NCBI GenBank assembly: GCA_017477435.1
Contig: JAFUVV010000008.1
Coordinates: 1-62,611 of the forward strand
Direction of reading: 5' to 3'
DNA from: Prevotella sp.
GTDB taxonomy: Bacteria > Bacteroidota > Bacteroidia > Bacteroidales > Bacteroidaceae
Length of the DNA: 62,611 bases
This document shows, piece by piece, positions 11,884-60,694 of the stretch; the first letter of the stretch is position 1, and each line of letters starts with the position of its first letter. The translations under genes and the position numbers were made by a program. A model generated the notes under the pieces. The model saw nothing but the letters and a program-made list of their open reading frames with translations. It did not search any database and was not told where the DNA came from.

Positions 11884-12010
11884 CTATCTGTGCTTGATAG
11901 TGGTGGTATCTGGCTTTGATAGTGTTGGTATCTGGCTTTGATAGTGTTGGTATCTGGCTTTGATAGTAGTGGTATCTGTGCTTGATACTGGCGGTATCTG
12001 GCTTTGATAC
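11884..12010 (+). repeat. GATAG-family 22-bp tandem array, six units (locus F)
   Basis: Six armed units of 17 bp repeat with a strict 22-bp period; the GATAG/GATAC arms start at 11896, 11918, 11940, 11962, 11984 and 12006. Each unit is CTATC or GTATC, then a 7-base spacer (TGGCTTT four times, TGTGCTT twice), then GATAG or GATAC; linkers of 5 bases vary. The flanking half-units (from 11874 and to 12022) have lost their outer arms. The array lies just beyond the rpoC terminator. The gap 11793-12160 otherwise holds only the two terminators. Confidence 0.93.
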
Positions 12011-12082
12011 TGGCGGCGTGTCTTTTCATAGGTGGCTGTAGAAGTACGTGCCAATTGTCATGTCATTGTCTGGAATGAAGAA

Positions 12083-12118
12083 AGGGTCTCTAAGCTGGTG
12101 GCTTGGAGACCCTTTTTC
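12083..12118. terminator. Bidirectional terminator between rpoC and DUF3467 gene
   Basis: AGGGTCTCTAAGC (12083-12095) pairs with GCTTGGAGACCCT (12101-12113), 13 bp with one wobble and a 5-base loop. T-rich tracts follow on both strands (TTTTTC on plus; TTCTTC on minus). It most likely ends the minus-strand DUF3467 transcript. Confidence 0.8.
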
Positions 12119-12160
12119 TTTGCTTGATAATCAGTGTGTTATCCGGGCGGTTATGTTTCC

Positions 12161-12478
12161 CTATGCTTCGCCTTTGTCGTTGCCGAACGGCGAGATGGTC
12201 TGTTTCACGGGCATGTCAACGCGTATGGGTCCGAAGTGGCTCTCGTAGATGTTGATGTTGTCCTGCAGTGCGAAGAGCAGTCGTTTGCAGTTCTCCGGTG
12301 TGAGGATGATGCGGCTTGCCACCTCGGGACGGATGAGTCCTGGGAGCATGCGTGCGAAGTCGATGATAAACTCGGTGTTGGAGTGTGTGATGAGCGAGAT
12401 GTTGGAATATACTCCGTGTGCCACCTCGGGCGTTATGGCCATCTGCGGCTCTTTCTTGATGTTGTCGTTATCGTTCAT
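12161..12478 (-). CDS. DUF3467 family protein
   Basis: The 105-residue acidic protein has no signal peptide or membrane segment, so it should be cytoplasmic. The central part (PEVAHGVYSNISLITHSNTEFIIDFARMLPG, then PEVASRIILTPENCKRLLFALQDNI) matches my memory of DUF3467, a small family of unknown function common in Bacteroidota. It is transcribed towards the rpoC terminator region as a single gene and ends before a bidirectional hairpin. A TAACTTCG element upstream on the minus strand (near 12509-12516) is a weak promoter candidate. The function is unknown. Confidence 0.85.
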   Translation of the reverse strand: MNDNDNIKKEPQMAITPEVAHGVYSNISLITHSNTEFIIDFARMLPGLIRPEVASRIILTPENCKRLLFALQDNINIYESHFGPIRVDMPVKQTISPFGNDKGEA

Positions 12479-12687
12479 AGCGGTTTTATTTGTTTGTTGC
12501 TGCGAAGTTAGTAAGAAAAATGTGAAAAAGTGATATTATATGATTAAAAAAATAGAATAAAGACATCATTTTCTTATTTTTTGCATCTTTTTTGAGTGTT
12601 TTTGTTGATATTTTGTAAATATTTTTGCTCATTTCCTTACTTTTTGTTGATTTAAATCAAGACTATCTATTGTTTTAACACAAAAAG

Positions 12688-12719
12688 TTTGTGAAAAGTG
12701 TCAAACTTGCATAAATTTG
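12688..12719 (+). promoter_or_regulatory. Bacteroidota-type promoter of susC
   Basis: TTTG at 12688-12691 and TAAATTTG at 12712-12719 are separated by 20 bases, matching the known -33/-7 consensus of the Bacteroidota housekeeping sigma factor. The expected transcription start is near 12724, about 50 bases before the susC start codon. Confidence 0.85.
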
Positions 12720-12775
12720 CAGTCGTAAATATTGTTTTGCAATTATTAAGTGTTTTAATTTAAAAAGATGTTTTT

Positions 12776-15700
12776 ATGGAGAAAAAGTTAACTATGCTTC
12801 TTGCGAGCCTCTTCCTGGTATTGGGCGGAGCGTTTGCGCAGACAACGGTTAATGGAACAGTTGTGTCTGAAGACGGCAACGAGCCTGTTATCGGTGCCAC
12901 CGTGCAAGTGGTCGGCGCCAGTAATGTAGGCACAGTGACCGATGTCGACGGACAGTTCACCATTACCTGTCCGGAAGGGAAGAATGTTCTTCGCATTTCT
13001 TACCTTGGCATGCAGCCAATAGAGGTGATTGCCAGAAAGAACCTGCGTGTCGTTCTTCGCGACGACAGCAACGACCTCGACGAGGTGATTGTGACGGGTT
13101 ATGGTAATGTGAAGAAATCATCATTCACCGGTGCTGCTGCCACCATCAACACGGAGGCCCTTTCCGACGTGCCGACGGTGAGCCTTGAGGACAAGCTCGC
13201 CGGTGGAGTGCCGGGAGTGTCTATTTCGACCACATCGGGTGCGCCGGGTGCTGTCAGTAGCATTCGTATCCGTGGTATGGGTTCTATTAATGCCGGTAAC
13301 GACCCGCTCATCGTCATCGACGGTGTGCCAATGGTCAGCGGTGACATCAACCCGGTCGGAGCAGGTGGATACAACGATGCTGGCACTAACTCGCTTTCTA
13401 CACTCAACTCAAACGACATCGAGTCGATGACAGTCATCAAGGACGCTGCCGCTGCTTCTCTTTATGGATCACGTGCTGCAAACGGTGTGATCGTCATCAC
13501 CACAAAGAGTGGTAAGAAGGGTAAGACCAATGTTGAGTTCCGCAGCGACTGGGGATTCTCTAACGCTGCTGTCGACTATCGTCCACAGCTCAGTGGTGAC
13601 GAACGCCGCAACCTGCTTATCAAAGGTCTTGAGAACTACCTCATGTATGGCGAGGGCGCTCCTGCCGACGTGGCAAGAGAGTTCGCACTGGAGAACATCG
13701 ATGCCTTCGCGCCAATTCCCGAGGGTGGCTACACCAACTGGAAAGACCTGCTCTTCAAGACCGGACACCACCAGAACTATCAGGTGAGCGTCAACGGAGG
13801 ATCTGACAACACACAGTTCTACTCGTCAATATCTTATGTTAAGCAAGACGGTATCCTGACCAATCAAGGAATGGAGCGCTTCACGGGCAATGCCAACGTG
13901 TCGCATAAGTTTGGACGCTTTACAGTTCGCCTGTCGACAATGTTCTCGAAGGTGAACCAGAGCCTTGCAAACGAAAAAACCTCATTCGACGGAACGATAG
14001 CCAACTATGCCTTCTTCCAGAGCCCGAGCGACGTGCCCTTCTTTGAAGATGGTTCGTTCAACAGAGAAATTGGTTTCACGGGCGTGAACCCGCTGTATGA
14101 ATATCTGCACAGCAGTGATCGCACTCGTATTAATCGTATGATGAACACCCTGCAGCTCACATATAATATATGGGACAACCTGAACATCTCTGAGAAAGTG
14201 TCTTACGACTTCTCGTCGAATTCTGAGGATGTGCTTTGGGATAAGTATTCAAACAATGCTTCGAACTACGGCGGTCTCCTGCAGCGTTTTGGTTCACGTT
14301 TCTCTCAGTTGAATACTCAGACTCAGCTCACATATATCAAGAGCTTCGGCAATCATAACATCGACGCTCTGGCAGGATTCGAGACTGAAGATTTCAATTT
14401 CATAAGCGAATATATGAGTGGTTTGGATTATCCTGGCGAACTCTACGAAATTGCTAATGCCGGTGAAACTGATTCTGAGACATCGAAGAGCGGTTATCGC
14501 ATGACATCGTTTATCGGACGCCTGAACTACAACTACGACAACAAGTACTACGCCGGACTGAGCTATCGTCGCGACGGCACATCGCGCCTTGCCAAGGAGA
14601 ACCGCTGGGGCGACTTCTGGTCGGTGAGCGGAGCATGGCGATTCACAGGCGAGAGCTTCATGGAAGGCATCAAGAATACCCTGACCGACGGTAAGCTGCG
14701 CATCAGCTACGGTGTCAACGGTACACAGCCTTCAGGCTACTACGGCTACATGAACCTCTACCGCTACGGTGTGATGTACAACGGCTCGTCAGGTATGGCC
14801 ATCATCGGTGTAGGTAATCCAAACCTGAAGTGGGAGAAGAACCACGCATTCAACGTCGGTCTCGACCTCACCTTCTGGAACCGGCTCACCTTCGGCATCG
14901 ACTTCTACACCCGCACGACGAAAGACCTTATCTACGACCTGCCCATCTCGGCAGTGCCCGGTTATTATTCAACTGACGATGATGGCAACCCGATTATCGC
15001 AGCTGCACAGAATGTGGGCTCACTGAAGAACACTGGTATTGAGGTGACAATCAACTCTGTAAACATCCAGAAGCCAGACTTCGAGTGGACCACACAACTC
15101 AACTTCGGTCACAACCACAACAAAGTTGCCAAGCTCGACGGAGAGATGGAAGAGATCATCGATGGACCAATGATTCACCGCGTGGGTGAGACCTACTGGT
15201 CGTACTACCTCTATGAGTATGCAGGAGTAGACCCAGAGACAGGACAGGAGAGCTACTACATCAACGATCCTGATGCTAAACCTGGAAAAGAACGTGCTAC
15301 TACAATAGATTCAGGCGAGGCCAACAAGGTGATCGTGGGCAATCACGAGCCAGTGATTGAAGGCGGTCTGTCAAACAACATCCGCTGGAAGTTCATCGAC
15401 TTCAGCTTCACGATGACCTTCTCGCTCGGTGCCGACGCTTACGACTGGGCTACATGGCAGCACTGCAACGGAGGTGCGTACCTCTATTATGGAGCCGTTC
15501 CTTCCTACTACGACATCGACAAGATGTGGACAGGTCCTGGCGATACACAATGCACACAGCCTAAGTTCCAGTATGGTAGCGACAGAATTGCCTCTTCACG
15601 CTGGCTCATGCCTGCCGACTACCTGCGTGTGAAGAACCTCACAGTAGGTTTCACAGCTCCGCGCCAGTGGACATCGAGAATCGGTGTGAGCAAGGCTCGT

Positions 15701-15841
15701 GCTTACTTCTCGGCAAGCAACCTGCTCACCTTCAAGTCGAAAGACCTCTTCGTAGATCCAGAGATGCCGGTACATGGAGCATGCACATTCGAGACTCCTG
15801 CGCTCCGCACATTCACGTTCGGTATTGAATTAGGATTTTAA
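12776..15841 (+). CDS. SusC/RagA-type TonB-dependent outer membrane transporter
   Basis: The 1021-residue product is an outer membrane barrel that, with its SusD partner, imports glycans or peptides using TonB energy. A signal peptide (MEKKLTMLLASLFLVLGGAFAQ) is followed by a carboxypeptidase-like domain (about residues 24-95, VNGTVVSEDG...SYLGMQP), the DEVIVTGYG motif near residue 103, and a plug with SSIRIRGMGSINAGNDPLIVIDGVP. The rest is the beta barrel, ending in an aromatic residue (GIELGF). susD follows after 28 bases. No sensor, sigma factor or glycosidase is adjacent, so the substrate cannot be inferred. Confidence 0.95.
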   Translation: MEKKLTMLLASLFLVLGGAFAQTTVNGTVVSEDGNEPVIGATVQVVGASNVGTVTDVDGQFTITCPEGKNVLRISYLGMQPIEVIARKNLRVVLRDDSNDLDEVIVTGYGNVKKSSFTGAAATINTEALSDVPTVSLEDKLAGGVPGVSISTTSGAPGAVSSIRIRGMGSINAGNDPLIVIDGVPMVSGDINPVGAGGYNDAGTNSLSTLNSNDIESMTVIKDAAAASLYGSRAANGVIVITTKSGKKGKTNVEFRSDWGFSNAAVDYRPQLSGDERRNLLIKGLENYLMYGEGAPADVAREFALENIDAFAPIPEGGYTNWKDLLFKTGHHQNYQVSVNGGSDNTQFYSSISYVKQDGILTNQGMERFTGNANVSHKFGRFTVRLSTMFSKVNQSLANEKTSFDGTIANYAFFQSPSDVPFFEDGSFNREIGFTGVNPLYEYLHSSDRTRINRMMNTLQLTYNIWDNLNISEKVSYDFSSNSEDVLWDKYSNNASNYGGLLQRFGSRFSQLNTQTQLTYIKSFGNHNIDALAGFETEDFNFISEYMSGLDYPGELYEIANAGETDSETSKSGYRMTSFIGRLNYNYDNKYYAGLSYRRDGTSRLAKENRWGDFWSVSGAWRFTGESFMEGIKNTLTDGKLRISYGVNGTQPSGYYGYMNLYRYGVMYNGSSGMAIIGVGNPNLKWEKNHAFNVGLDLTFWNRLTFGIDFYTRTTKDLIYDLPISAVPGYYSTDDDGNPIIAAAQNVGSLKNTGIEVTINSVNIQKPDFEWTTQLNFGHNHNKVAKLDGEMEEIIDGPMIHRVGETYWSYYLYEYAGVDPETGQESYYINDPDAKPGKERATTIDSGEANKVIVGNHEPVIEGGLSNNIRWKFIDFSFTMTFSLGADAYDWATWQHCNGGAYLYYGAVPSYYDIDKMWTGPGDTQCTQPKFQYGSDRIASSRWLMPADYLRVKNLTVGFTAPRQWTSRIGVSKARAYFSASNLLTFKSKDLFVDPEMPVHGACTFETPALRTFTFGIELGF

Positions 15842-15869
15842 TCGTTGAACCACTAAGAATAATAAGATT

Positions 15870-17402
15870 ATGAAATATTACAGTTATATTTTTAAGACCG
15901 TCCTCTGTGCCGCATTCGTGCTGGGACTCAGCTCTTGTGGCAACGATTGGCTCGAAGAGGAACAGCCTTCTACTGGCGTAAATGCCGAGACGGCTATTAA
16001 GAAGAGCAGTGATCTTGCGGCTGCCTATGTAGGTATGTACACCGCATTCAAAGGTACATCGAGTTTCACAGACTACTATGGTGCCAACATGTTCGTCTAT
16101 GGCGAGGTAAGTGGAGAGGATATGCAGTACAACAAAATAAACGGTTCTAACCGTGCATCTTTCTACTACTATCGCATATACACCACTGCCGATCAGTTCG
16201 GCGTTTCTAACGCAGTATGGGAAAGTCCGTATATCGTCATCAGCCGTGCAAACCACATTATTGCTGTCGAAGATAGCGAACTGGAAGACTTCGAGGAGGC
16301 TGCCGATGATATCGCACAGATGAAGAACGAGGCTAAGGTGCTCCGTGCATACGCCCTGTTCGACCTCGCACGCATCTATGGTAAGCCATATACACAGGAT
16401 GGTGGCGCTTCACTTGGTGTGCCGTTCTCTACAGAGCTCATCGATGCTGAAGCTAAGCTGCCACGTTCTACTGTAGCTGAGAACTATGCTCAGGTGGTGA
16501 AAGACCTCACCGAGGCAATATCTTCAGGCGCTCTTGCAGAAGATCCCACACCGGGATATGTCAACAAGTGGGCTGCTGAAGCTCTTCTCACACGTGTGTA
16601 TCTGACTATGGGCGACAATGCCAAAGCATTGTCAACGGCCGAAGATGTTATAAGCAGTTCTCCGTATAAGACTTGGACTCAAAGCCAGTATGTTAAGGCA
16701 TGGGACAAGAATGATGCTGCTCATATGAATGAGATAATATTTGAGATTGGTATCACAGGATCCAGTGACTGGACCGACCGCGAAGGTATAGCATATCTGT
16801 ATTGTGAGAACGGAGGTGCCAATGGCTCCGGATATGGCGACTTGGTGGCATCGAAAGCATTCTCTGATATGCTGGCTTCTGATCCTAATGATATTCGCAA
16901 CAATGTATTCCTGCCTGCAAATGGTAGTAATGCTAAGGCTGGATTCGGTACCGCCCGAGTGTTCCTCAACAAGATTCCGGCTATTGGCGGAGTTGTACAG
17001 TATCAGAACGTTCCTATGCTTCGCTTCTCTGAAGTCGTTCTCAGCGCTGCCGAGGCAGCGTTCAACACTGGCAACAAGGACAAGGCTGCCAAGTATCTGA
17101 ACGAGATTATCAAGAACCGTACCTCTGACGAGTCGAAGCAGGTAAGTGCTGCTACTGTCACTGCCGACCGCATCTACATCGAGCGCCGCAAGGAGCTCGT
17201 GGGCGAGGGACAGCGTTGGTTCGACGCTCTCCGCCGTGGTGAGACCATCACTCGCTATACCAGTGAGGACGACCGCGGATGGCACGATGTGCTCACACAG
17301 CGCGCTCGCTCATACAACCGCGAGTCGAAGTATGCTCTGCCACCAATCCCGCAGTATGAAATCGACGCTAACCCAGAGATTGTTCAGAACAGCGACTATT
17401 AA
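15870..17402 (+). CDS. SusD/RagB family surface lipoprotein
   Basis: The 510-residue product is the lid lipoprotein of the SusCD importer. A lipoprotein signal peptide ends LGLSSCGNDW, giving Cys23 as the likely lipidated residue. TPR-like helical segments follow (MKNEAKVLRAYALFDLARIYG; WAAEALLTRVYLTMGD), and the C-terminal family motif DRIYIERRKELVGEGQRWFDALRRGE is near residue 430. It is coupled to the susC gene 28 bases upstream and shares its promoter. A hairpin lies about 95 bases after its stop. Confidence 0.95.
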   Translation: MKYYSYIFKTVLCAAFVLGLSSCGNDWLEEEQPSTGVNAETAIKKSSDLAAAYVGMYTAFKGTSSFTDYYGANMFVYGEVSGEDMQYNKINGSNRASFYYYRIYTTADQFGVSNAVWESPYIVISRANHIIAVEDSELEDFEEAADDIAQMKNEAKVLRAYALFDLARIYGKPYTQDGGASLGVPFSTELIDAEAKLPRSTVAENYAQVVKDLTEAISSGALAEDPTPGYVNKWAAEALLTRVYLTMGDNAKALSTAEDVISSSPYKTWTQSQYVKAWDKNDAAHMNEIIFEIGITGSSDWTDREGIAYLYCENGGANGSGYGDLVASKAFSDMLASDPNDIRNNVFLPANGSNAKAGFGTARVFLNKIPAIGGVVQYQNVPMLRFSEVVLSAAEAAFNTGNKDKAAKYLNEIIKNRTSDESKQVSAATVTADRIYIERRKELVGEGQRWFDALRRGETITRYTSEDDRGWHDVLTQRARSYNRESKYALPPIPQYEIDANPEIVQNSDY

Positions 17403-17494
17403 GCAGATAAACAGGTTAACAAATTAACAGATAAACAGGTTTGAGTCAGCAAAGTCCCTCTTCGGGGGATAGCGTTGCACTAATATAGGTTTTC

Positions 17495-17533
17495 ATCGGG
17501 CGGTGCTCCACATCAGAGGGAGCGCCGCCCGAT
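17495..17533 (+). terminator. Strong hairpin downstream of susD
   Basis: A 15-bp stem (17495-17509 with 17519-17533, one G-T pair) closes a 9-base loop. The following tract TGCTTTC is only moderately T-rich, so it could be a terminator or a transcript-stabilising 3' end. The gap 17403-17822 also holds a GTAC array, two TTGCAAC palindromes and a promoter. Confidence 0.6.
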
Positions 17534-17568
17534 TGCTTTCATGAAGCATGAGATAGGGGCTGTCGGCA

Positions 17569-17651
17569 GTACAAGGCCCATGTACTCCGAGTACAAAGCC
17601 CATGTACTCGCAGTCGGACGCTTATGTACTCCGAGTACAAAGCCCATGTAC
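17569..17651 (+). repeat. GTAC-family 22-bp tandem array, four units (locus A)
   Basis: Four units of the form GTAC, nine bases (consensus AAAGCCCAT), GTAC repeat at 22-bp spacing across exactly 83 bp. The third unit is degenerate: its left arm is lost and its spacer is GGACGCTTA-like. The array starts after the susD hairpin and ends 93 bases before the -7 element of the metal ATPase gene. Confidence 0.93.
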
Positions 17652-17678
17652 TGAAGCCAGGACCGTCTGACGGCGGTC

Positions 17679-17732
17679 TTGCAACTGGGTTGCAATGTTG
17701 GCGGCAAGGGCGTGTTTGCAACCGAGTTGCAC
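17679..17732 (+). promoter_or_regulatory. Pair of TTGCAAC palindromes, candidate operator of the metal ATPase
   Basis: TTGCAAC-TGG-GTTGCAA (17679-17695) is a perfect inverted repeat. TTGCAAC-CGA-GTTGCAC (17716-17732) repeats it with one end mismatch. The two start 37 bp apart and lie immediately upstream of the probable -7 element of the ATPase gene, where a metal-responsive repressor or activator would bind. That role is inferred from position only. Confidence 0.5.
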
Positions 17733-17743
17733 TTTTTTCTTCG

Positions 17744-17751
17744 TAATTTTG
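17744..17751 (+). promoter_or_regulatory. -7 promoter element of the metal ATPase gene
   Basis: TAATTTTG fits TAnnTTTG and lies 71 bases before the start codon. No good TTTG lies 19-21 bases upstream; the second TTGCAAC palindrome occupies the -33 zone, which would suit a regulated promoter. Confidence 0.55.
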
Positions 17752-17822
17752 CAGCGAGAAAAGAATTTAAAACTATAAAGTAGCACCTGTTTTCATAGGG
17801 GCGAAGCAAAAAACAAAACGAT

Positions 17823-19856
17823 ATGTCACACGATCATCACGACGATCATTGCTCTTCTGAGCATCACGATCACGGTCACGGCGGCCACTGCTGCCATCAC
17901 GAACATCATCACAATCACTCTCACGACGGCCATTGCTGCCATCATGAGCATCATCACGCCCACGACCACGAGCATGGCGGCCTGCGCTCGCAGCTGCTGA
18001 AGATTGCCGTGGCCACGGTACTCCTCATCGCCTGTGTGGTGGCGGAGAAAACGTTGTCGCGGCCCACATGGCAGCTGCTCGCCATTTATCTCGTGCCCTA
18101 TCTGATAGTGGGCTTCGACACGCTGAAGGAGGCGTGGGAAGGAATAAGCCATGGCGATGCGTTCAACGAGCATTTCCTCATGTCGATAGCCACCATCGGG
18201 GCGCTGCTCATCGGATTCCTCCCCGGGGCTGAGACGCAGTTCCCCGAGGCGGTGTTCGTGATGCTGTTCTTCCAGGTCGGCGAGATGTTTGAAGGCTATG
18301 CCGAGGGCAGGAGCCGCGAGAGCATCGCCCATCTGATGGACATCCGTCCCGACGTGGCCTGCGTGGTGCGCGACGGCGAGGAGCAGAGCGTCGCTCCCGG
18401 CGAGGTGGCGGTGGGCGAGACCATCGTCGTGCGCCCAGGCGAGAAGATTCCTCTCGACGGAGTGGTGGAGGAGGGCAGTACAGCCCTCAACACCGTGGCA
18501 CTGACGGGCGAGACGCTGCCGCGCGAGGTGGGCGTGGGCGACGAGGTGATGAGCGGATGCGTAAACATCTCCGGTGTTATCCGCGTGCGCACTACGAAGG
18601 TGTTCGGCGAGAGCACCGTCTCGAAGATAATAGACCTTGTGGAGCATGCCTCCGACAATAAGTCGAAGAGCGAAGCCTTCATCACCCGTTTTGCCCGTGT
18701 ATATACCCCCGTGGTGGTGTTTGCTGCTATAGCCTTGGCCCTGCTGCCGCCGCTGTTCTCCGGCTCGTTCGGAGAGGCGTTCCCCACGTGGCTCTACCGC
18801 GCACTGATGTTCCTCGTCATCTCCTGCCCGTGTGCCCTGGTGCTCAGCGTGCCCCTGACGTTCTTCGGTGGCATCGGAGGAGCGTCGCGCAAGGGAATCC
18901 TGATAAAGGGCGCCAACTATATGGACGTGCTCTCGAAGGTAGACACCGTCGTGTTCGACAAGACCGGCACGCTCACTCGCGGACAGTTTGCTGTTGAGGC
19001 CGTCCATCCCGAGAGCTGCGACGAGCGCCACCTGCTTCACCTCGCCGCCCATGTGGAGCATTTCTCCACACACCCCATCGGTGCCGCCCTTCGCGATGCG
19101 TTCCCCGACGAAGCCGTCGACGGCTGCCGCGTGAGCGACGTGGAAGAGGTGGCCGGACAGGGCGTGAAGGCGCGCGTAGGCGATGACGTGGTGTGCGTGG
19201 GCAACGAGAAGATGATGGCCGCTGTAGGGGCGCAGTGGAAAGACTGCGACCGTGTGGGCACGATCATCCATGTGGCTATCAATGGCGTGTATGCAGGTCA
19301 TATCGTAGTCGGCGACCGCGTGAAGGACGATAGCGCCGAGGCTGTTGCAGCATTGAGTGGGCTGGGAGTGAGCCGTACCGTCATGCTCACCGGCGATCGC
19401 GAGGCAGTCGGTGCCGATGTGGCAAAGCGACTCGGACTCTCGGAGTATCATGCCGAACTGCTGCCGGGCGACAAGGTCGACCATGTCGAACGTCTGATAG
19501 GCGAAGAGCGCGAAGGGCAGTATCTGGCATTCGTGGGCGACGGCATCAACGATGCTCCCGTGCTTGCCCGCGCCGATGTAGGAATAGCCATGGGAGGCCT
19601 TGGCAGCGACGCAGCGATAGAGGCAGCCGACGTGGTGATCATGGACGACCACCCCTCGAAGATAGCCCTCGCCATACGCATCGCACGCCGCACTCTCGGC
19701 ATCGCAAAGCAAAATGTGTGGTTTGCCATCGGCGTGAAAGTAGCAGTCCTCATCCTTGCCACCTTCGGCCTCGCCACCATGTGGATGGCAGTATTTGCCG
19801 ATGTCGGCGTCACCGTCTTGGCCGTGCTCAACGCCATGAGAGCACTGAGGGCATAG
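17823..19856 (+). CDS. Heavy-metal-translocating P-type ATPase with His-rich N-terminus
   Basis: The 677-residue product exports divalent metal ions (probably Zn/Cd/Pb/Co) across the inner membrane. The family motifs are all present: the SCPC metal-binding motif in a membrane helix (Cys335-Pro336-Cys337), the phosphorylated Asp379 in DKTGTLT, the HP-locus His417 (STHPIGAA), TGES-like LTGETLP, and GDGINDAP near residue 573. In place of a CxxC metal-binding domain, the first 53 residues hold 25 His, with the block GHCCHHEHHH occurring twice (21-30 and 36-45). Paired palindromes upstream suggest metal control. CPC favours Zn/Cd or Cu over Co, and the exact metal is not certain. Confidence 0.93.
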   Translation: MSHDHHDDHCSSEHHDHGHGGHCCHHEHHHNHSHDGHCCHHEHHHAHDHEHGGLRSQLLKIAVATVLLIACVVAEKTLSRPTWQLLAIYLVPYLIVGFDTLKEAWEGISHGDAFNEHFLMSIATIGALLIGFLPGAETQFPEAVFVMLFFQVGEMFEGYAEGRSRESIAHLMDIRPDVACVVRDGEEQSVAPGEVAVGETIVVRPGEKIPLDGVVEEGSTALNTVALTGETLPREVGVGDEVMSGCVNISGVIRVRTTKVFGESTVSKIIDLVEHASDNKSKSEAFITRFARVYTPVVVFAAIALALLPPLFSGSFGEAFPTWLYRALMFLVISCPCALVLSVPLTFFGGIGGASRKGILIKGANYMDVLSKVDTVVFDKTGTLTRGQFAVEAVHPESCDERHLLHLAAHVEHFSTHPIGAALRDAFPDEAVDGCRVSDVEEVAGQGVKARVGDDVVCVGNEKMMAAVGAQWKDCDRVGTIIHVAINGVYAGHIVVGDRVKDDSAEAVAALSGLGVSRTVMLTGDREAVGADVAKRLGLSEYHAELLPGDKVDHVERLIGEEREGQYLAFVGDGINDAPVLARADVGIAMGGLGSDAAIEAADVVIMDDHPSKIALAIRIARRTLGIAKQNVWFAIGVKVAVLILATFGLATMWMAVFADVGVTVLAVLNAMRALRA

Positions 19857-19935
19857 TTAATAGTGCATAGAGCATAATAGATAGAAGTACTCACTTCGAT
19901 AAACTTAACATCTGCTGACACAATAAATCACCACC

Positions 19936-21108
19936 ATGGCTCGTTTATTCAGTATGCAGTGGACAGACAGGATTCGACAGGTGAAGATTCTGCTCGTGGT
20001 GGCAGCGGTGATTATCGCAGTCGCCTCGTTGCTCGTGTCGCACTATCTTGTCCGCGATCTGTCGATAGAAGAGCGCAACAAGATGGGTGTGTGGGCCGAG
20101 GCTATGCGCTCGCTGAACAATGCCGACGAGACTACCGACCTCAATCTTGTGCTCACCGTCATCGACGAGAACAACACCATTCCTGTGGTGGTGACCGACA
20201 AAGCCGGCCACGTGCAGACGTTCCGCAACGTGGAGATAAAGGCCGCTGACACGCTCGCATATCTCTCCAGCCTTGCTGAGAAGATGAAGGACGACAACCG
20301 GTTTATACGTATCGAGCTCGACGACAGCACCAATGCCGACTACATCGACGTGTGCTACGACGAGTCGGTCATGATAAAGCGCCTGAATGTCTATCCCTAC
20401 GTCTCGCTCGGCGTAGTGATGATCTTCGTCGTCGTGGCTATCTTCGCACTGCTGACATCGAAGCGAGCCGAGCAGAATAAGGTGTGGGTGGGCCTTTCGA
20501 AAGAAACGGCGCACCAGCTCGGAACCCCCATCTCGAGCCTCATGGCATGGACGGAGATACTGAAGGAGAACTATCCCGACGACGAACTCATACCTGAGAT
20601 GGACAAAGACGTGAAGCGCCTGCAGCTCATCGCCGAACGATTCTCGAAGATAGGGTCGCTGCCAGAGCCTGTGCCCACAAGCCTGAACGGCGTGATGCAG
20701 CACGTCGTGGAATACATGGACCGCCGCACATCGCAGCAGGTGAAGATGATCTGCCACATGCCCCCCGACGACATAATCGTGAAGATCAACGCCTCGCTCT
20801 TCGAGTGGGTGATTGAGAACCTCTGCAAGAACGCCGTCGACGCGATGGGAGGATCGGGCATCATCACCATCGACATGACGGAAACCCCCGACCGCGTCGC
20901 CATTGAGGTGGCCGACACCGGAAAAGGCATCAAGAAGAAAGACATCGACAACGTGTTCAAACCCGGCTTCACCACCAAGAAGCGCGGATGGGGACTCGGC
21001 CTCTCGCTGGCCAAACGCATCGTAGAGGAATACCACCGGGGAAAGATATACGTGAAGCAGAGCGAGGTAGGCAAAGGCACTACCTTCCGCATCGAACTGA
21101 AAAAATAG
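19936..21108 (+). CDS. Membrane sensor histidine kinase
   Basis: The 390-residue product is a two-component sensor in the inner membrane. Membrane segments are at about residues 15-35 and 152-172, enclosing a periplasmic domain of about 115 residues. The phosphorylated residue is His193 in the H-box SKETAHQLGTPISSL. The ATPase domain has the N-box (WVIENLCKNAVDAMGG), G1 (DTGKGIKKKD) and G2 (RGWGLGLSLAKRIVEEYH). No HAMP linker or response regulator gene is obvious, so it is an orphan here and its signal is unknown. The gene starts 79 bases after the metal ATPase, so a shared transcript is possible. Confidence 0.92.
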   Translation: MARLFSMQWTDRIRQVKILLVVAAVIIAVASLLVSHYLVRDLSIEERNKMGVWAEAMRSLNNADETTDLNLVLTVIDENNTIPVVVTDKAGHVQTFRNVEIKAADTLAYLSSLAEKMKDDNRFIRIELDDSTNADYIDVCYDESVMIKRLNVYPYVSLGVVMIFVVVAIFALLTSKRAEQNKVWVGLSKETAHQLGTPISSLMAWTEILKENYPDDELIPEMDKDVKRLQLIAERFSKIGSLPEPVPTSLNGVMQHVVEYMDRRTSQQVKMICHMPPDDIIVKINASLFEWVIENLCKNAVDAMGGSGIITIDMTETPDRVAIEVADTGKGIKKKDIDNVFKPGFTTKKRGWGLGLSLAKRIVEEYHRGKIYVKQSEVGKGTTFRIELKK

Positions 21109-21144
21109 CTTTTGCCACACAGCTACAGCAAAAGCTATTTTCTT
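21102..21144 (+). terminator. Intrinsic terminator of the histidine kinase gene
   Basis: A 14-bp perfect stem (21102-21115 with 21128-21141) has its 5' arm over the stop codon of the kinase gene and is followed by CTTTG. An A-tract before and T-rich end make it a possible terminator in both directions. Confidence 0.8.
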
Positions 21145-21189
21145 TGTATAGATTATATAGATGCTATAGATGGTATAGTGTCGGGTTTT

Positions 21190-21292
21190 GATAGCGTTGC
21201 TATCCGGCCTTGATAGTGCCGCTATCCGGCTTTGATAGAGCCGCTATCCGGCTTTGATAGCGTTGCTATCCGGCTTTGATAGTGCCGCCGTC
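21190..21292 (+). repeat. GATAG-family 22-bp tandem array, four full units (locus G)
   Basis: GATAG starts occur at 21190, 21212, 21234, 21256 and 21278, exactly 22 bp apart. Counted as CTATC-N7-GATAG, there are four intact units across 83 bp (21200-21282), with spacer CGGCTTT three times and CGGCCTT once. The inner palindrome is GATAGCGTTGCTATC in two places. The last right arm decays to CCGTC. The array ends 125 bases before the -7 element of the DUF177 gene and fills much of the gap 21109-21433. Confidence 0.93.
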
Positions 21293-21391
21293 CGGCTAAG
21301 GAAGGAGAGCCGCTTGCATTTGATGACATCGGGAGCAATACGACGTTTTTGAGGTTAAAAACCATGTAAGTCAAAAAAATATAAATTTTTA

Positions 21392-21424
21392 TTCGCTCTA
21401 AATGAAAAAAATGTTGTAACTTTG
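21392..21424 (+). promoter_or_regulatory. Promoter of the DUF177-rpmF-fabH operon
   Basis: TAACTTTG at 21417-21424 is a strong -7 match; TTCG at 21392-21395, 21 bases upstream, is a one-mismatch -33. The -7 element ends only nine bases before the ATG at 21434, so the mRNA would have a leader of about 4-6 bases. Confidence 0.7.
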
Positions 21425-21433
21425 CAGCCCGAT

Positions 21434-21979
21434 ATGAGTAGTCTCGATGAATTGAGGTTCGATCTGCTGCAGATGGGCAGTGTTGCCGACGAGCGCGAAG
21501 TGCATCTCACAGACGATTTTTTCAAGTCCGTCGGGGCGACCGAAGTCAGTCGCGGCGACGTTGATGTGACGCTGAAGGTGTCGGCTGTTGGCAGTAGCTT
21601 CAGAGCCGACTATGACTTCTGCGGCACGCTGGTGTTGCCGTGCGACATTTGTCTGGACGACATGGACCAGCCCGTGGAGGGCAGCGGGAGCCTTGTCGTC
21701 AGACTCGGTAAAGAGCCGGGCGAAGACGGCGATATCATCACCATCGACGAGAACGAAGGAATGCTCGACATGGCGTGGTACGTCTACGAATCGATAGCCC
21801 TTAGCATACCCATCAGGCACGTGCATGAGACTGGTAAGTGCAACGTTGCCATGACCGCACTCACCCGCGAGTACATCGCCGATTCCGACGGCGAGAGGAC
21901 AGCTGCCCGAAGCAGCGATGAGGAGCAGGACATCGACCCGCGCTGGGCAAAACTGAAGGGATTGAAAATCGAAGAATGA
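21434..21979 (+). CDS. DUF177 (YceD-like) family protein
   Basis: The 181-residue cytoplasmic protein belongs to the YceD/DUF177 family, whose gene lies next to rpmF in most bacteria and which has been linked to 23S rRNA/50S assembly. The family core is visible: DVTLKVSAVGSSFRADYDFCGTLVLPCDICLDDM, then SLVVRLGK and an acidic C-terminus ending DPRWAKLKGLKI. I chose ATG 21434 over the in-frame TTG at 21422, because that TTG is part of the -7 promoter element. L32 follows 116 bases later. Confidence 0.88.
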   Translation: MSSLDELRFDLLQMGSVADEREVHLTDDFFKSVGATEVSRGDVDVTLKVSAVGSSFRADYDFCGTLVLPCDICLDDMDQPVEGSGSLVVRLGKEPGEDGDIITIDENEGMLDMAWYVYESIALSIPIRHVHETGKCNVAMTALTREYIADSDGERTAARSSDEEQDIDPRWAKLKGLKIEE

Positions 21980-22095
21980 AAAATTGATTTCCCTGAAAAC
22001 GTAACGAAACAAGTATTAACAAGGAAGAGAGACGCAGCAGCAGACTGACACCTTCAGTCTGCAGGCTTCAATCTTCAATAACAAACAAAAAAATC

Positions 22096-22281
22096 ATGGC
22101 ACATCCTAAAAGAAGACAATCGAACACCCGTACCGCCAAGCGCAGAACTCACGACAAGGCTGTAGCTCCAACACTGGCAGTATGTCCAAACTGCGGCGCT
22201 TACTATGTTTATCACACCGTATGCCCCACATGTGGCTACTATCGCGGTAAAGTGGCTATCGAAAAAGAACTGGCTGAATAA
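22096..22281 (+). CDS. rpmF: 50S ribosomal protein L32
   Basis: The 61-residue protein starts MAHPKRRQSNTRTAKRRTHD, the L32 N-terminus. It keeps the four-cysteine zinc motif (CPNCGAYYVYHTVCPTCGYY), so this is the zinc-binding C+ form. It sits between DUF177 and fabH (8-base gap to fabH), the usual arrangement linking translation and lipid synthesis genes. Confidence 0.96.
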   Translation: MAHPKRRQSNTRTAKRRTHDKAVAPTLAVCPNCGAYYVYHTVCPTCGYYRGKVAIEKELAE

Positions 22282-22289
22282 GCTCTGCG

Positions 22290-23282
22290 ATGGGAAAAAT
22301 CAATGCGATAATCACAGGCGTCGGCGGATACGTGCCCGACTATGTGCTGACAAACGAAGAGTTGTCGCGCATGGTTGACACTACCGACGAGTGGATTATG
22401 ACGCGTGTCGGAATAAAAGAGCGCCACATTCTCACAGAAGAAGGCCTCGGCACGAGCTACATGGCCCGCAAAGCAGCAAAGCAGCTGCTGCAGAAGACTG
22501 GCACTGACCCCGACACCATCGACGCTCTGATAGTTACCACCACCACGCCCGACTATAAGTTCCCCTCAACGGCAAGCATCGTGCTGGGCAAGCTGGGACT
22601 GAAGAACGCCTTCGCGTTCGACTTCTCGGCCGCTTGCTGCGGATTTCTCTACTCCTTAGACGTGGCCGCCTCGATGATACAGTGCGGCCGGTATAAGAAG
22701 ATAATGGTCATCGGCGCCGACAAGATGTCGTCGCTCGTCGACTATCAGGACCGCGCCACATGCGTGCTCTTCGGCGACGGAGCCGGAGCAGTGCTCGTGG
22801 AAGGGACAGAAGAAGAAGGCATAGGAGTGCAGAACTCATTCTTCCGCACCGACGGAAAAGGACTGCCATACCTCCACCTGAAAGCCGGAGGGTCGGTATG
22901 TCCAGCAAGCCATTTCACCATCGACCATCGTCTGCACTACCTCTATCAGGAAGGGCGCACAGTGTTCCGCTTCGCCGTCACGGCAATGAGCGACGACGTG
23001 CTCGAGATAATGCGCATGAACAACCTGACCGCCGACGATGTCGACTGGGTCATCCCACACGAGGCCAACGTCAGAATAATCGAGGCAGTGGCAAAGAGAG
23101 CAGAGATACCCATGGAGAAAGTGGTGGTCAACATCGAGCGCTACGGCAACACCAGCGCAGCCACCATACCCCTCGCCCTCTGGGACCACGAGTCGCGACT
23201 GAAGAAAGGCGACAATATCGTCTTCACAGCCTTCGGAGCTGGATTCGTACACGGAGCCTCCTTCTATAAGTGGGCGTACTAA
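22290..23282 (+). CDS. fabH: 3-oxoacyl-ACP synthase III (KAS III)
   Basis: The 330-residue enzyme condenses acetyl-CoA or a branched acyl-CoA with malonyl-ACP to start fatty acid synthesis. The thiolase-fold catalytic set is present: Cys116 in SAACCGFLYSL, His in the IPHEANVRI motif, and Asn in GNTSAATIPLAL. The ending FTAFGAGFVHGASFYKWAY is typical. It follows rpmF by 8 bases, so it is probably translated from the same mRNA. In Bacteroidota the enzyme usually primes branched-chain fatty acids; that is inference here. Confidence 0.96.
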   Translation: MGKINAIITGVGGYVPDYVLTNEELSRMVDTTDEWIMTRVGIKERHILTEEGLGTSYMARKAAKQLLQKTGTDPDTIDALIVTTTTPDYKFPSTASIVLGKLGLKNAFAFDFSAACCGFLYSLDVAASMIQCGRYKKIMVIGADKMSSLVDYQDRATCVLFGDGAGAVLVEGTEEEGIGVQNSFFRTDGKGLPYLHLKAGGSVCPASHFTIDHRLHYLYQEGRTVFRFAVTAMSDDVLEIMRMNNLTADDVDWVIPHEANVRIIEAVAKRAEIPMEKVVVNIERYGNTSAATIPLALWDHESRLKKGDNIVFTAFGAGFVHGASFYKWAY

Positions 23283-23291
23283 TCTGTTGAT

Positions 23292-23377: not shown

Positions 23378-23402
23378 GTTTATATAACTAATAAAAACCG
23401 AT

Positions 23403-24329: not shown

Positions 24330-24382
24330 GAGATATTTTTTTACCGACATTTTTCAAGTATAAATAGAGGAGGAACCATAAC

Positions 24383-25696: not shown

Positions 25697-25697
25697 G

Positions 25698-26093: not shown

Positions 26094-26139
26094 AAAGATC
26101 CTCTTACTTTCGAAGGTTATGTAAATAGGGATAAATAGT

Positions 26140-28659: not shown

Positions 28660-29481
28660 ATGGATACAACCACCGACAGATATGCCGTCGACGTCTCCGA
28701 GCTCCGCACCGACGGGCTTGTGAAGATCTATGGCAAGCGCACCGTGGCCAACGGCGTGTCGTTCAACGTGCGCCAGGGAGAAATCGTGGGGCTGCTCGGG
28801 CCCAACGGAGCCGGAAAGACAACATCGTTCTACATGACAACGGGACTCGTAGTGCCCAATGCAGGCCACGCCTATCTCAACGACGAGGAGATAACCGCCT
28901 ACCCTGTCTACAAGCATGCGCGTGCCGGTATCGGCTATCTGCCGCAGGAAGCATCGGTGTTCCGAAACATGAGCGTGGAAGACAACATCCTCTCTGTGCT
29001 CGAGATGACCGGCCGCCCGAAGGACTATCAGATGGAGAAGCTCGAACAGCTCATCCGCGAGTTCCGCCTCGAGAAGGTGCGCAAGAACAAGGGCAACCAG
29101 CTCTCCGGCGGCGAGCGACGACGCACGGAGATAGCACGATGCCTCGCCATCGACCCGAAGTTCATCATGCTCGACGAACCATTCGCAGGCGTAGACCCCA
29201 TCGCCGTGGAAGACATACAGCACATCGTGTGGCGACTGAAATACAAGAACATCGGAATACTCATCACCGACCACAACGTCGACGAGACGCTCACCATCAC
29301 CGACCGCGCCTATATTCTCTTCGAAGGAAAGATCCTCTTCCAGGGCACCCCCGAGGAACTCGCCTCCAACAGCATCGTGAAGGAGAAATATCTCACCAAG
29401 TCGTTCGTCCTCAGAAAGAAAGACTTCCAGCTCATCGACGACGAGAAAACCGAGGCTGAAGCGTCTTCTGCCGAAGGCTAA
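28660..29481 (+). CDS. lptB: LPS export ABC transporter ATP-binding protein LptB
   Basis: The 273-residue ATPase drives LPS extraction by LptFG. Motifs: Walker [10 protein letters not shown] (about residues 47-55), Q-loop [21 protein letters not shown], signature [16 protein letters not shown], Walker [14 protein letters not shown], and H-loop [10 protein letters not shown]. An N-terminal extension of about 15 residues and an acidic C-terminal tail ([14 protein letters not shown]) exceed the E. coli length of 241. The stop codon and last three codons lie inside the first unit of a 22-bp repeat, so repeat spread may have reshaped the C-terminus. The OstA-like protein at 55620 belongs to the same LPS pathway. 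Confidence 0.95.
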
Positions 29482-29535
29482 AAGCCCCTTAGCCACAGGC
29501 TAAAGCCCCATCAGCCGAAGGCTACAGGGCGTTCA
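29470..29535 (+). repeat. GGCT/AGCC 22-bp tandem repeat overlapping the lptB stop
   Basis: Three 22-bp units start at 29470, 29492 and 29514. Each begins GCC(G/A)(A/C)AGGCT; the first two continue into AAAAGCCCC or AAAGCCCC. Read as arms, GGCT-N11-AGCC is joined by 3-base linkers (palindrome AGCC-GAA-GGCT). The AAAGCC core recalls the GTAC and GATAG families, and a GTAC array starts eight bases further on. Only two full armed units exist. Confidence 0.75.
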
Positions 29536-29542
29536 GACAACA

Positions 29543-29625
29543 GTACATGGCTTTTGTACTCCGAGTACAAAGGCCATGTACTCTTAGTACAACGTTCATC
29601 TACTCCGCGTACAAAGCCCATGTAC
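29543..29625 (+). repeat. GTAC-family 22-bp tandem array, four units (locus B)
   Basis: Four GTAC-N9-GTAC units at 22-bp spacing cover 83 bp. Spacers are ATGGCTTTT, AAAGGCCAT, AACGTTCAT and AAAGCCCAT; the third unit is degenerate, as in locus A. The array lies between the convergent ends of lptB and the small-peptide gene. Confidence 0.93.
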
Positions 29626-33947: not shown

Positions 33948-34052
33948 GTATCAAGCACGGATAGCGTTGCTATCAAGCCAAGATAGTGTTGCTATCAAAG
34001 CCAGATAGCGTTTCTATCAAACACGGATAGCGTTGCTATCAGAACCAGATAG
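33948..34052 (+). repeat. GATAG-family 22-bp tandem array, five units (locus H)
   Basis: GATAG arms start at 33960, 33982, 34004, 34026 and 34048, exactly 22 bp apart. Spacers between TATC and GATAG are AAGCACG, AAGCCAA, AAAGCCA, AAACACG and AGAACCA. The orientation is opposite to loci F and G. Outer half-units (33938 and after 34052) have degenerate arms, so the array boundary falls on intact arms. Confidence 0.92.
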
Positions 34053-38721: not shown

Positions 38722-38804
38722 GTACAAAGCCCATGTACTCTCAGTACAAGGCCCATGTACTCGGAGTACAAAAGCCATGTACTCGCAGTACAAAGCCCAT
38801 GTAC
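38722..38804 (+). repeat. GTAC-family 22-bp tandem array, four units (locus C)
   Basis: Four intact GTAC-N9-GTAC units at 22-bp spacing cover 83 bp; spacers are AAAGCCCAT, AAGGCCCAT, AAAAGCCAT and AAAGCCCAT. This is the best-preserved copy of the family. It ends 124 bases before the -7 element of tig. Confidence 0.95.
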
Positions 38805-42528: not shown

Positions 42529-42611
42529 GTACAAAGCCCATGTACTCCGGGTGTGTGGGCTTTGTACTGAGAGTACATGGCTTTTGTACTGCGAGTACAA
42601 GAACCATGTAC
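42529..42611 (+). repeat. GTAC-family 22-bp tandem array, four units (locus D)
   Basis: Four units at 22-bp spacing cover 83 bp. Two spacers are inverted relative to the others (TGGGCTTT and ATGGCTTTT), and the second unit's left arm is degenerate (GTGT). It starts nine bases after the stop codon of the preceding gene and ends 134 bases before the -7 element of clpP. Confidence 0.93.
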
Positions 42612-59100: not shown

Positions 59101-59185
59101 AAAATCTAAAATAGGGGGTAAAAAACCAACTTTTATCAATTTTTCTTTAAAAAAACGCACAAAATTCCCAAAAAAAGTGTTGGTA

Positions 59186-59218
59186 TTTGAAAATAATTAC
59201 TAACTTTGTGCCCAAATA
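59186..59218 (+). promoter_or_regulatory. Strong promoter of ompA
   Basis: TTTG at 59186-59189 and TAACTTTG at 59211-59218, 21 bases apart, match the Bacteroidota consensus fully. The leader to the ATG at 59268 is about 45 bases, in keeping with a highly expressed outer-membrane protein. Confidence 0.88.
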
Positions 59219-59267
59219 TGGATCGGAACTAACGAAATTTTTTTTGATTGTTAAATAATAAAAGGTT

Positions 59268-60425
59268 ATGAAAAAATTATTTATTATCTTGGCGTTCGCC
59301 GGTGTCACAATGACATCTATGGCACAAGACGCAGATCCTGTACAGAAGTACAGCGTAGCAACAAATTCATTCTGGAGCAACTGGTTCATCCAGGTTGGCG
59401 CTAACTGGGATGCATTTTATTCTGGCCAGGAGCACGGTCAGGGTCTCGAGAGAAGCCCGTTCAAGGGATTCCGTTCTCACGTAGGTGCTGCCGTAGCTCT
59501 CGGTAAGTGGTTCACACCAGGTATCGGACTCCGCACAAAGCTGCAGGGTATCTGGGGCAAGCAGGTTTACAATCCTCGCACTGGCGTTGTTGACAACGAC
59601 AACGACTTCTGGCTCCTCAACGAGCACGTGCTGTTCAACGTAAGCAACCTGCTTTGCGGTTACAACCCAAAGCGTGTTTGGAACTTCATTCCATTCGCAG
59701 GTGCTGGCTTCGGTCGTTCAATGACAACTAACCTCTACGGTATGGACCTCAGCGCTGGTATCCTCAACACATTCCGTCTGAGCAAGCACGTCCTCCTCAA
59801 CCTTGAGGTTGGTTACGTACGTACAGAGGGTGACGTTGACGGTTACGACCTGTCTTCTCTTGGAAACCGTGGTTGGGATTCTCACGACAACATGTTCTAC
59901 GGCGAACTTGGTCTGACCTTCAACCTTGGTAAGGCTACTTGGAACAAGGTGCCCGATGTGGACGCTCTCAAAGCTCTCCACCAGTCACAGCTCGACGCTC
60001 TCAACGCACAGCTCAACGATGCTAACGCTGAGAACGCTCGCCTGAAGAAGCTCCTTGCTGAGCAGAAGCCAGCTCCAGCTGCTGAGCCTAAGACTGTTAA
60101 GGAATTCGTTGGCACACCAGTTAACGTATTCTTCAACCTCGACAAGTACAACATCGCTTCGCAGAAGGATCTCGTAAACGTTCAGGGTATTGCTAAGTAC
60201 GCTAAGGACAATGGCGCTAACCTCCTCGTAACAGGTTATGCTGACAGCGCAACAGGTAAGGCTCCACACAACCAGTGGCTGTCTGAGAAGCGCGCAGAGA
60301 CCGTTGCTAACGAGCTCGTTAAGATGGGTGTAAGCCGTGATAAGATTGAAACAGCCGCTAAGGGTGGTGTAAACGATCTGTCGCCAATCAGCTTCAACCG
60401 TCGCGCTACTGTTCAGGTTAAGTAA
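59268..60425 (+). CDS. OmpA family outer membrane protein
   Basis: The 385-residue protein has a signal peptide (MKKLFIILAFAGVTMTSMA). An N-terminal eight-stranded-type beta barrel spans about 25-215 (WFIQVGANWDAFYSG, FRSHVGAAVALGKWFTPGIGL, LNLEVGYVRTEG). A heptad-like coiled coil, roughly 228-265 (QLDALNAQLNDANAENARLKKLLAEQKPA), leads to the C-terminal peptidoglycan-binding OmpA domain (VNVFFNLDKYNIASQKDLVNVQGIAKYA...NQWLSEKRAETVANELVKMGV), ending FNRRATVQVK. It should tether the outer membrane to the wall and is probably a major surface protein, given the strong promoter and favoured codons. Confidence 0.95.
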   Translation: MKKLFIILAFAGVTMTSMAQDADPVQKYSVATNSFWSNWFIQVGANWDAFYSGQEHGQGLERSPFKGFRSHVGAAVALGKWFTPGIGLRTKLQGIWGKQVYNPRTGVVDNDNDFWLLNEHVLFNVSNLLCGYNPKRVWNFIPFAGAGFGRSMTTNLYGMDLSAGILNTFRLSKHVLLNLEVGYVRTEGDVDGYDLSSLGNRGWDSHDNMFYGELGLTFNLGKATWNKVPDVDALKALHQSQLDALNAQLNDANAENARLKKLLAEQKPAPAAEPKTVKEFVGTPVNVFFNLDKYNIASQKDLVNVQGIAKYAKDNGANLLVTGYADSATGKAPHNQWLSEKRAETVANELVKMGVSRDKIETAAKGGVNDLSPISFNRRATVQVK

Positions 60426-60448
60426 TTTAGCTATTGAACTTAAAAACT

Positions 60449-60478
60449 AAAGCGTTTCCTTCGGGAAGCGCTTTTTTT
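60449..60478 (+). terminator. Intrinsic terminator of ompA with UUCG tetraloop
   Basis: An 11-bp stem (60449-60459 with 60464-60474, one G-T) closes a C(TTCG)G tetraloop and runs into TTTTTTT. It lies 24 bases after the stop codon. Confidence 0.92.
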
Positions 60479-60611
60479 GTTTCCATAAACGACCGGGCAC
60501 TGTTAATTAACGTCCGCAGGTCTAAGTTGCCATATTTTTTCTATCTGATTTCCACATCTCATCGGTGCTGACATAGGTGGGCGGAGCACAATTCCTGTTT
60601 GATTTTCAATC

Positions 60612-60694
60612 GTACATGGGCTTTGTACTGTGAGTACAGAGGCCATGCACTATTGGTACAGAACCCATGTACTGCGAGTACAAGGCCCATGTAC
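60612..60694 (+). repeat. GTAC-family 22-bp tandem array, four units (locus E)
   Basis: Four units at 22-bp spacing cover 83 bp. Spacers include ATGGGCTTT, AGAGGCCAT, AGAACCCAT and AAGGCCCAT; one arm is GCAC. It lies 130 bases after the ompA terminator and 334 bases before the next -7 element. Confidence 0.93.

Follow-up and report, generated by a model that had tools for sequence, protein, structure and literature searches.

To our knowledge, most short bacterial repeats are single palindromes or tandem repeats whose number drifts. Here we describe short intergenic arrays from a Prevotella sp. genome in which the unit number, the period and the layout are kept, but the letters presumed to be read differ from family to family and from one sister species to the other. 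The stretch analysed is contig JAFUVV010000008.1 of NCBI GenBank assembly GCA_017477435.1 (62,611 bp, hereafter the window), which is contig 27 of a 62-contig, 2.32-Mb genome that is 78% complete (hereafter the source genome). Each array is a row of 17-bp palindromic units at a period of 22 bp. The families are named after their arms: GTACA; S-TATC, in which the outer arm base is C or G, often both within one array; and TAA-type.

Several known systems resemble these arrays in part. BOX elements of Streptococcus pneumoniae are modular intergenic repeats with fixed ends and repeated middle modules, but the modules are longer and variable in number, and no palindromic plan is common to several arm families. 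Lambdoid operators consist of 17-bp dyad sites with short linkers and plasmid iterons of ~22-bp tandem sites, and in both one protein is bound side by side. Unlike the present arrays, they occupy one or a few loci per replicon, beside the gene of their protein. CRISPR loci, with identical repeats separated by unique spacers in long arrays at one or a few sites, differ in repeat layout, the only basis on which they were judged since no search for cas genes was made: our arrays have 7-bp cores from a small set, about four units each, and 390 exact adjacent GTACA pairs genome-wide.

REP, BIME and REPIN sequences, which are linked to REP-associated tyrosine transposases (RAYTs), are described as short intergenic palindromes in high copy number, in families that vary from species to species (PMC3733652). 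The present arrays share all of these traits. However, they consist of tandem units with a strict 22-bp period and a near-fixed number, and they lack the GTAG tag: the GTACA profile reads AGTACA..TGTACT, with C as the fourth arm base in 51 of 52 outer units (both strands), and the S-TATC units have no constant GTAG either. The alternating palindrome orientation of BIMEs is not seen, as in the source genome 48 of the 70 GTACA arrays and 21 of the 24 S-TATC arrays contain no unit with an opposed core. No RAYT gene flanked by arrays was found, yet an IS200-type transposase gene of the source genome (Y1-B) has an array 45 bp downstream.

BrickBuilt repeats of Porphyromonas gingivalis, a species of the same bacterial order, are intergenic 23-nt tandem repeats with small inverted-repeat ends, leader and tail segments of up to ~300 nt and IS5-family-like ends; one strain has 19 copies, and repeat numbers expand and contract between strains (PMC4596501). 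Strain W83 is also mentioned there as having 22-nt tandem repeats, with no details given, and the term 'palindrom' is absent from the text (PMC4596501). BrickBuilt and our arrays are both intergenic and have nearly the same repeat length. Our arrays differ from it in their steady unit number (4 units in 66 of 70 GTACA arrays) and in having no long leader or tail, since the flanks past 10 bp match at only 13-23 of 60 positions in the ten most alike array pairs, with an all-pair average of 17. PINSR of Prevotella intermedia is described as a 188-bp intergenic element without terminal inverted repeats, with 177 and 184 copies in two strains and found in related species only (PMC4755523). It is likewise intergenic, abundant and restricted to relatives, and is set apart here by its description, not by sequence comparison. 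We found no published account of the present arrays in the open-licence PubMed Central literature. Our observations point to an undescribed family of DNA landmarks. It is quite possible, though short of probable, that they form a new class of intergenic dyad array, with a family-specific unit number, exchangeable arms, conserved machinery that enforces the 5+7+5+5 plan and the unit number, a separate reader for each family and replacement in the same slots across Prevotellaceae.

A common 22-bp plan

The sequence-only reading of the window had proposed that two repeat families, GTAC-N9-GTAC and CTATC-N7-GATAG, share a 17-bp unit and a 5-bp linker. The agreement is tighter than that. The GTAC family parses better as GTACA-N7-TGTAC, that is, a 5-bp arm, a 7-bp core, a 5-bp arm and a 5-bp linker at period 22, so its layout is identical to that of CTATC-N7-GATAG (5+7+5+5). 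The window contains 16 exact GTAC-N9-GTAC and 9 exact CTATC-N7-GATAG units, all in register at 22 bp, in five GTACA arrays of 4 units each and three S-TATC arrays of 6, 5 and 5 units. Tandem Repeats Finder listed seven of the eight, each with a period of 22; it did not list the GTACA array at 42529, whose second unit is decayed.

We scanned 437 kb of the source genome de novo, allowing any 5-bp arm, loops of 3-12 and periods of 14-39. Loop 7 with period 22 gave 72 matches (55 GTACA, 9 CTATC, 6 GATAC and 2 singletons), and combinations at other periods gave at most one match each. Period-22 matches at loops 3, 5, 9 and 11 were read as alternative parses of the same arrays. The common period could have been a coincidence among many periods, but the scan found essentially period 22 only. 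Besides the GTACA pairs, the whole source genome holds 51 exact adjacent CTATC pairs, and a backward-pattern control gave 0 for both families. The 22-bp arrays are far beyond chance. From 21 GTACA arrays in ~374 kb (stretches L016-L035), we estimate that the source genome holds roughly 130 arrays.

Within a unit, the arms are far more constant than the core. The arm mismatch rate is 1.7% in 66 GTACA arrays, whereas individual core positions depart from AAGCCCA in 4-37% of cases. The AAAGCC core proposed earlier is real, but it is variable, consisting of AAGCCCA and its relatives. This core is asymmetric and occurs in both orientations, although units within one array resemble each other in the same orientation. 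The profile of the first 26 GTACA arrays, pooled over both strands, is A-GTACA-WRGNCYW-TGTAC-TSNS. A weak border of ~9 bp (YYKRCNGCA) surrounds the GTACA arrays, its symmetry being a product of the strand pooling, and by eye the outer flanks of both families are alike, of the type CGGCNGCA / TGCNGCCG. AA or TT stands at the core edges of 178 of 227 perfect-arm units. A loop rule has been reported for REPs (PMC3733652); we rejected such a rule for our cores, as two orientations of an asymmetric core give the same pattern of edge mispairing. Restriction avoidance was also rejected as an explanation, because GTACA and TGTAC occur outside arrays at the expected frequency (0.97 and 1.02); GTAC is somewhat under-represented (0.72).

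The claim that arrays never mix arms holds for the window but not beyond it. Two hybrid GTATC/GTACA arrays, with three hybrid units between them, were the only ones found in 507 kb scanned. They lie 4.5 kb apart (L146:10276 and L146:14787), and one of them is the array that starts 45 bp after the stop codon of Y1-B. These units show that half-sites of two families can mix.

The number of units is nearly fixed within a family and genome. Apart from the 66 four-unit arrays, 892 kb of the source genome contained four GTACA arrays: one of 2 units, one hybrid of 3, one of 5 and one of 6. In the first 437 kb all 26 arrays have 4. Stretches L232-L251 were picked for known array matches and L145-L148 for Y1 genes, and are therefore informative on unit number, not on density. 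S-TATC arrays have 5 units in 14 of 22 cases, 6 in five, and 2, 3 and 4 once each. Another Prevotella, RGIG3793, has 3 GTACA units at all 23 fetched loci, and the sister species G064 has 4 in 11 of 12 arrays and 3 in the other. Genomes with few loci vary more (2, 3, 4 or 5 units among seven arrays in RUG11493; 2 or 3 among six in Tb.RUG.323). Neutral minisatellites, in which slippage makes functionless tandem duplications, would account for the likeness of units within an array, for the visible unit duplication in the 5-unit and 6-unit GTACA arrays and for the single 2-unit array. They would not account for a unit number that stays nearly constant while cores and linkers diverge, for arms that outlast the core, or for the concentration of dyad-symmetric units with unrelated arms at period 22, and we regard this explanation, already disfavored, as very improbable.

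Family replacement and distribution

Comparison with the sister species G064 shows that the families replace one another on one plan and do not arise by letter-by-letter arm change at each site. Aligned pieces of G064 are 77-89% identical to positions 12500-32000 of the window. Fourteen arrays of the source genome have flanks that are collinear in the sister (68.7-90.6% identity). None of the corresponding sister gaps contains an array or a near-perfect unit of the GTACA or S-TATC family; seven of these gaps hold a TAA-type 22-bp array instead and seven hold none. With stricter detection, TAA-type arrays occur in 4 of 15 sister gaps opposite arrays of the source genome versus 1 of 40 control gaps (p = 0.017); the control gaps were unmatched for length, and restriction to sister gaps of 150-600 bp gives 3 of 7 versus 1 of 14. 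Samples of the two genomes contained 10 (source genome; control 2) and 16 (sister; control 0) TAA-type arrays.

The clear replacement cases are L031:9251 and the gap after rpoC, where a TAA-type array lies opposite the S-TATC array at 11884..12010. In that gap the sister also carries, by eye, a lone degenerate unit resembling S-TATC (ATATCTGGCATTGATAT). A 4-unit TAA-type array at L031:13542 is common to both species, and the GTACA array that lies 30 bp beyond it is present in the source genome only. The sister also has, by eye, a TAA-type array past the same gene end as the decayed TAA-type array at 29470..29524. No convincing S-TATC array was found in 916 kb of the sister; the best case, at L216:15889, is at most a single unit beside a decayed one. 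The sister has 12 GTACA arrays, two of them inside a tract of 96% identity and a third where a tract of 97% identity ends; the other nine have no counterpart in the sample of the source genome. In the two orthologous arrays of the 96% tract, 0 of 80 arm positions and 5 of 86 other positions differ (p = 0.06), which is suggestive only. Since the two species have different families in the same intergenic gaps, whether a protein reads the arrays or a transposase spreads them is directly testable.

Other features of this alignment touch the arrays. Several-kb tracts of L021, L032 and L148 are 96-97% identical to G064 stretches L173, L100 and L172, while other stretches are mostly ~74-93% identical; one such tract ends beside a GTACA array. 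The tracts look like recent exchange between the sister species, or contig mixing in the draft assemblies. Several breaks in alignment or gene order between the two genomes coincide with arrays, at 17569, 21178 and 29543-34052 of the window, at L028:18793 and at L033:5714.

The GTACA family is patchy among relatives. Among genomes drawn as relatives, none of 35 from the same genus and none of 24 from the same order contains a GTACA pair. At least 77 stretches matched when named genomes were scanned for the pattern, mostly from rumen Prevotella and Prevotellaceae; among the matches listed were one metagenome-assembled genome labelled Gemmatimonadetes and one labelled Bacteroidales. Fourteen genomes entered through 14 of these stretches hold 3-106 GTACA pairs each (control 0). 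Cultured Prevotellaceae are among the carriers, for example Xylanibacter rodentium with 8 exact pairs. The GTACA arms are constant across many Prevotellaceae, while linkers, unit numbers and borders differ by species. Three viral contigs in IMG/VR match the two-unit pattern, and one array of the source genome, used as query, matched no plasmid or phage record at E 0.001; a phage or plasmid origin was rejected on these results.

The same plan recurs with other arms. Further period-22 arrays have the arms TCATT-N7-AATGA (L059), GTTTC-N7-GAAAC (L161) and TAAAA-N7-TTTTR (L065), in addition to the TAA-type arrays of the sister, and two more (L051, L160) match 5+7+5 loosely. With GTACA masked, at other loci, 5 of 10 period-22 tandem segments contain a dyad-symmetric unit versus 4 of 85 at other periods of 15-35 (p = 0.0005); the chance per segment is 1-19% depending on period and composition, and the second locus set includes some masked letters. 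The four exceptions comprise one AAATC-N7-GATTT segment with a 4-bp linker and three of A/T-rich simple sequence. In 262 kb of sequence from 20 genomes of the same genus, part of it masked, a search at period 22 found no such array with exact arms. The proposal that GTACA and S-TATC are one element type with re-specified arms is supported: geometry, a similar core, intergenic placement and, by eye, flanks are common to both, and the plan exists with other arms in related genomes and in matching intergenic gaps of the sister.

Candidate readers and carriers

Placement was judged with our own simple codon-usage gene finder. None of the 70 GTACA arrays and one of the 24 S-TATC arrays overlap predicted genes. 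The genes beside GTACA arrays are codirectional in 35 cases, convergent in 12 and divergent in 19, with 4 arrays at stretch ends; against a background by gap length of 0.67, 0.12 and 0.22, this shows no strong preference. Two gaps (Lon/methyltransferase and FtsK/exonuclease) contain GTACA arrays in both the source genome and a distant one, which are too few cases to interpret.

We tentatively favor, with less than even confidence, the interpretation that the arrays are tandem operator-like sites for a putative dimeric DNA-binding protein, spread as intergenic repeats. An element consists of 17-bp palindromic sites, in a number typical of its family, with 5-bp linkers between them; it usually spans 83-127 bp and has a weak ~9-bp border. 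The near-invariant arms would most likely be half-sites of a dimeric, sequence-specific protein; their conserved letters argue for a factor that reads sequence. None of 40 units of the source genome with a changed arm is altered on the other arm, which is weak evidence as ~1.4 would be expected by chance. With a spacing of 22 bp, neighbouring dimers could bind cooperatively, in the manner of tandem phage operators or plasmid iterons. The various families (GTACA, S-TATC, TAA-type and others), each presumably with its own reader, would succeed one another in related genomes and occupy similar intergenic slots as the older ones decay. The build, abundance, steady unit number and intergenic position of the arrays, the conservation of their arms and the turnover between sisters are observed; the binding protein, its cooperativity and the origin of new arrays are what we infer here. 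If read by a protein, the arrays would form a chromosome-wide DNA-binding system of common rumen bacteria.

A number of observations weigh against this interpretation. Neither a binding protein nor a mobiliser was identified: among 501 flanking proteins no family lies immediately beside arrays in more than three genomes. Pfam scans of 15 array-adjoining proteins found mostly unrelated housekeeping proteins, with one MerR-type regulator and one NusG-like protein, which argues against a regulon. The absence of GTACA pairs from all 35 same-genus relatives marks the family as dispensable. In RGIG3793 the first unit resembles the reverse complement of the third and the flanks match as inverted repeats, so the whole element has an inverted-repeat appearance that fits a cruciform or hairpin. 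The left and right flanks there match at 5.83 of 10 positions within arrays versus 4.82 between arrays; the figures for the source genome are 4.62 and 4.56. Other points of this kind concern RNA. Folding six arrays as RNA gave a stable structure each time (z -3.5 to -8.9), as expected of tandem palindromes, and a G-U pair is retained in 21 of 50 arm changes in the source genome. In its GTACA arrays with codirectional neighbours the core runs sense in 26, antisense in 8 and tied in 1 (p = 0.003), and an orientation that follows gene direction fits an RNA or transcription-linked role.

The arrays might accordingly act as RNA in untranslated regions, where serial 5-bp hairpins or one long hairpin would protect or mark mRNA ends. 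Besides the points above, GTACA arrays lie closer to gene ends than to starts (median 127 versus 209 bp, starts being approximate), and the core orientation in the source genome shows no relation to the strand of genes farther away on the stretch (33:34). We nevertheless consider this role unlikely. The orientation bias is absent from other species (12:10, compared with 23:8 for the source genome by that second measure) and from S-TATC (4:6); a general coupling of core orientation to transcription was rejected because the bias is confined to GTACA arrays of the source genome. Compensatory arm changes are rare (none in the source genome, one in other species, one in the sister). The outer bases of S-TATC are non-complementary in 16 of 51 units (GG in 10, CC in 6). 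After rpoC a terminator-like hairpin common to the source genome and the sister already precedes the array (by eye). The arrays between divergent genes also speak against a role at mRNA ends, and Rfam at the gathering threshold gave no match to arrays.

A possible, though doubtful, alternative to the operator-like sites is that the arrays are non-autonomous mobile palindromes similar to REPs or miniature inverted-repeat transposable elements (MITEs). A transposase acting in trans would move the whole array, recognising either its ends or its folded single-stranded form, and arms would differ between families as element and enzyme co-evolve. If spread by a transposase, the arrays would be a REP-like system of different architecture. 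Intergenic placement, high copy number, patchy occurrence among species and family replacement between sisters all fit this explanation. So does proximity to Y1 transposases. The source genome has four Y1 matches, of which Y1-A and Y1-B are closest to the IS200 type (Y1-B under that model's cut-off); a GTACA array lies ~0.7 kb from Y1-A and the hybrid array beside Y1-B, and the sister's two Y1 matches have TAA-type arrays at distances of 1.8 and ~5 kb. Unit-order similarity between arrays is slightly higher than after shuffling (74.03 versus 73.51), a value reached in none of 200 shuffles.

Other results argue against such mobility. The link to Y1/RAYT genes that the sequence-only reading had suggested is not supported across genomes, as a Y1 match occurs in 11 of 15 genomes with GTACA arrays (one under the curated cut-off) versus 6 of 11 without GTACA pairs, and 16 stretches around Y1 genes of other genomes contain no GTACA or S-TATC array. 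Despite the arrays beside the two IS200-type genes, Y1/RAYT was rejected as the mobiliser for lack of co-occurrence across these 26 genomes. The suggestion that arm families equal paralogues in number fared no better: G061, a draft, has three dyad families (GTACA, TCATT and TAAAA) and no Y1 match. In the source genome, the REP-type Y1 above the REP-associated transposase cut-off is flanked by unrelated GC-rich palindromes; a second, just under its cut-off, ends at a contig edge with one flank unseen. Among 66 four-unit arrays there are no recent copies, the best pair being identical at 79 of 83 positions with flanks past 10 bp no better than average. At the two array-free sister sites aligned for GTACA (L017:18680 and L030:6935), no clean junction or target duplication could be discerned at ~76-81% identity.

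The REP-type Y1 gene above the cut-off is found at L148:8372-11938 (contig C5 of the source genome). Its REP-associated tyrosine transposase domain is embedded, in frame, in the gene of an MmeI-type restriction enzyme, whose match to the methyltransferase domain it splits. The GC-rich palindromes on either side have similar counterparts at ~34200-34340 of the window.

Features of the window and a second repeat family

The arrays of the window are collected in Table 1.

Table 1. Positions and condition of the 22-bp-period arrays in the window.
Feature	Position	Strand	Context
S-TATC array, 6 units, both C and G as outer base	11884..12010	.	downstream of rpoC
GTACA-N7-TGTAC array, 4 units, third decayed	17569..17651	.	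between SusD-like gene and P-type ATPase gene
S-TATC array, 5 units, first decayed	21178..21282	.	after histidine-kinase gene
Decayed TAA-type array (TAAAAGCCCCTTA..., period 22), 2 units by custom detector	29470..29524	.	beside GTACA array
GTACA array, 4 units, core of first unit reversed	29543..29625	.	
S-TATC array, 5 units	33948..34052	.	
GTACA array, 4 units, perfect arms	38722..38804	.	upstream of trigger-factor gene
GTACA array, 4 units, second decayed	42529..42611	.	starts 9 bp past predicted stop codon
GTACA array, 4 units, second decayed	60612..60694	.	

The window also contains a second repeat family of GGAGTTA/TAACTCC units at 27548-27736. A copy of ~170 bp is present at L100:4807-4978 and absent at L032:4356, in stretches that are 96.5% identical. 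By eye, this copy has a 9-bp direct duplication (AATAAACAC) and inverted ends around TTTCGCAAGT. Judging from its sequence, with the junction read by eye, the family is a MITE with a recent insertion. The P-type ATPase gene of the window begins with a 45-bp tandem repeat (17862-17971) that encodes a histidine-rich segment.

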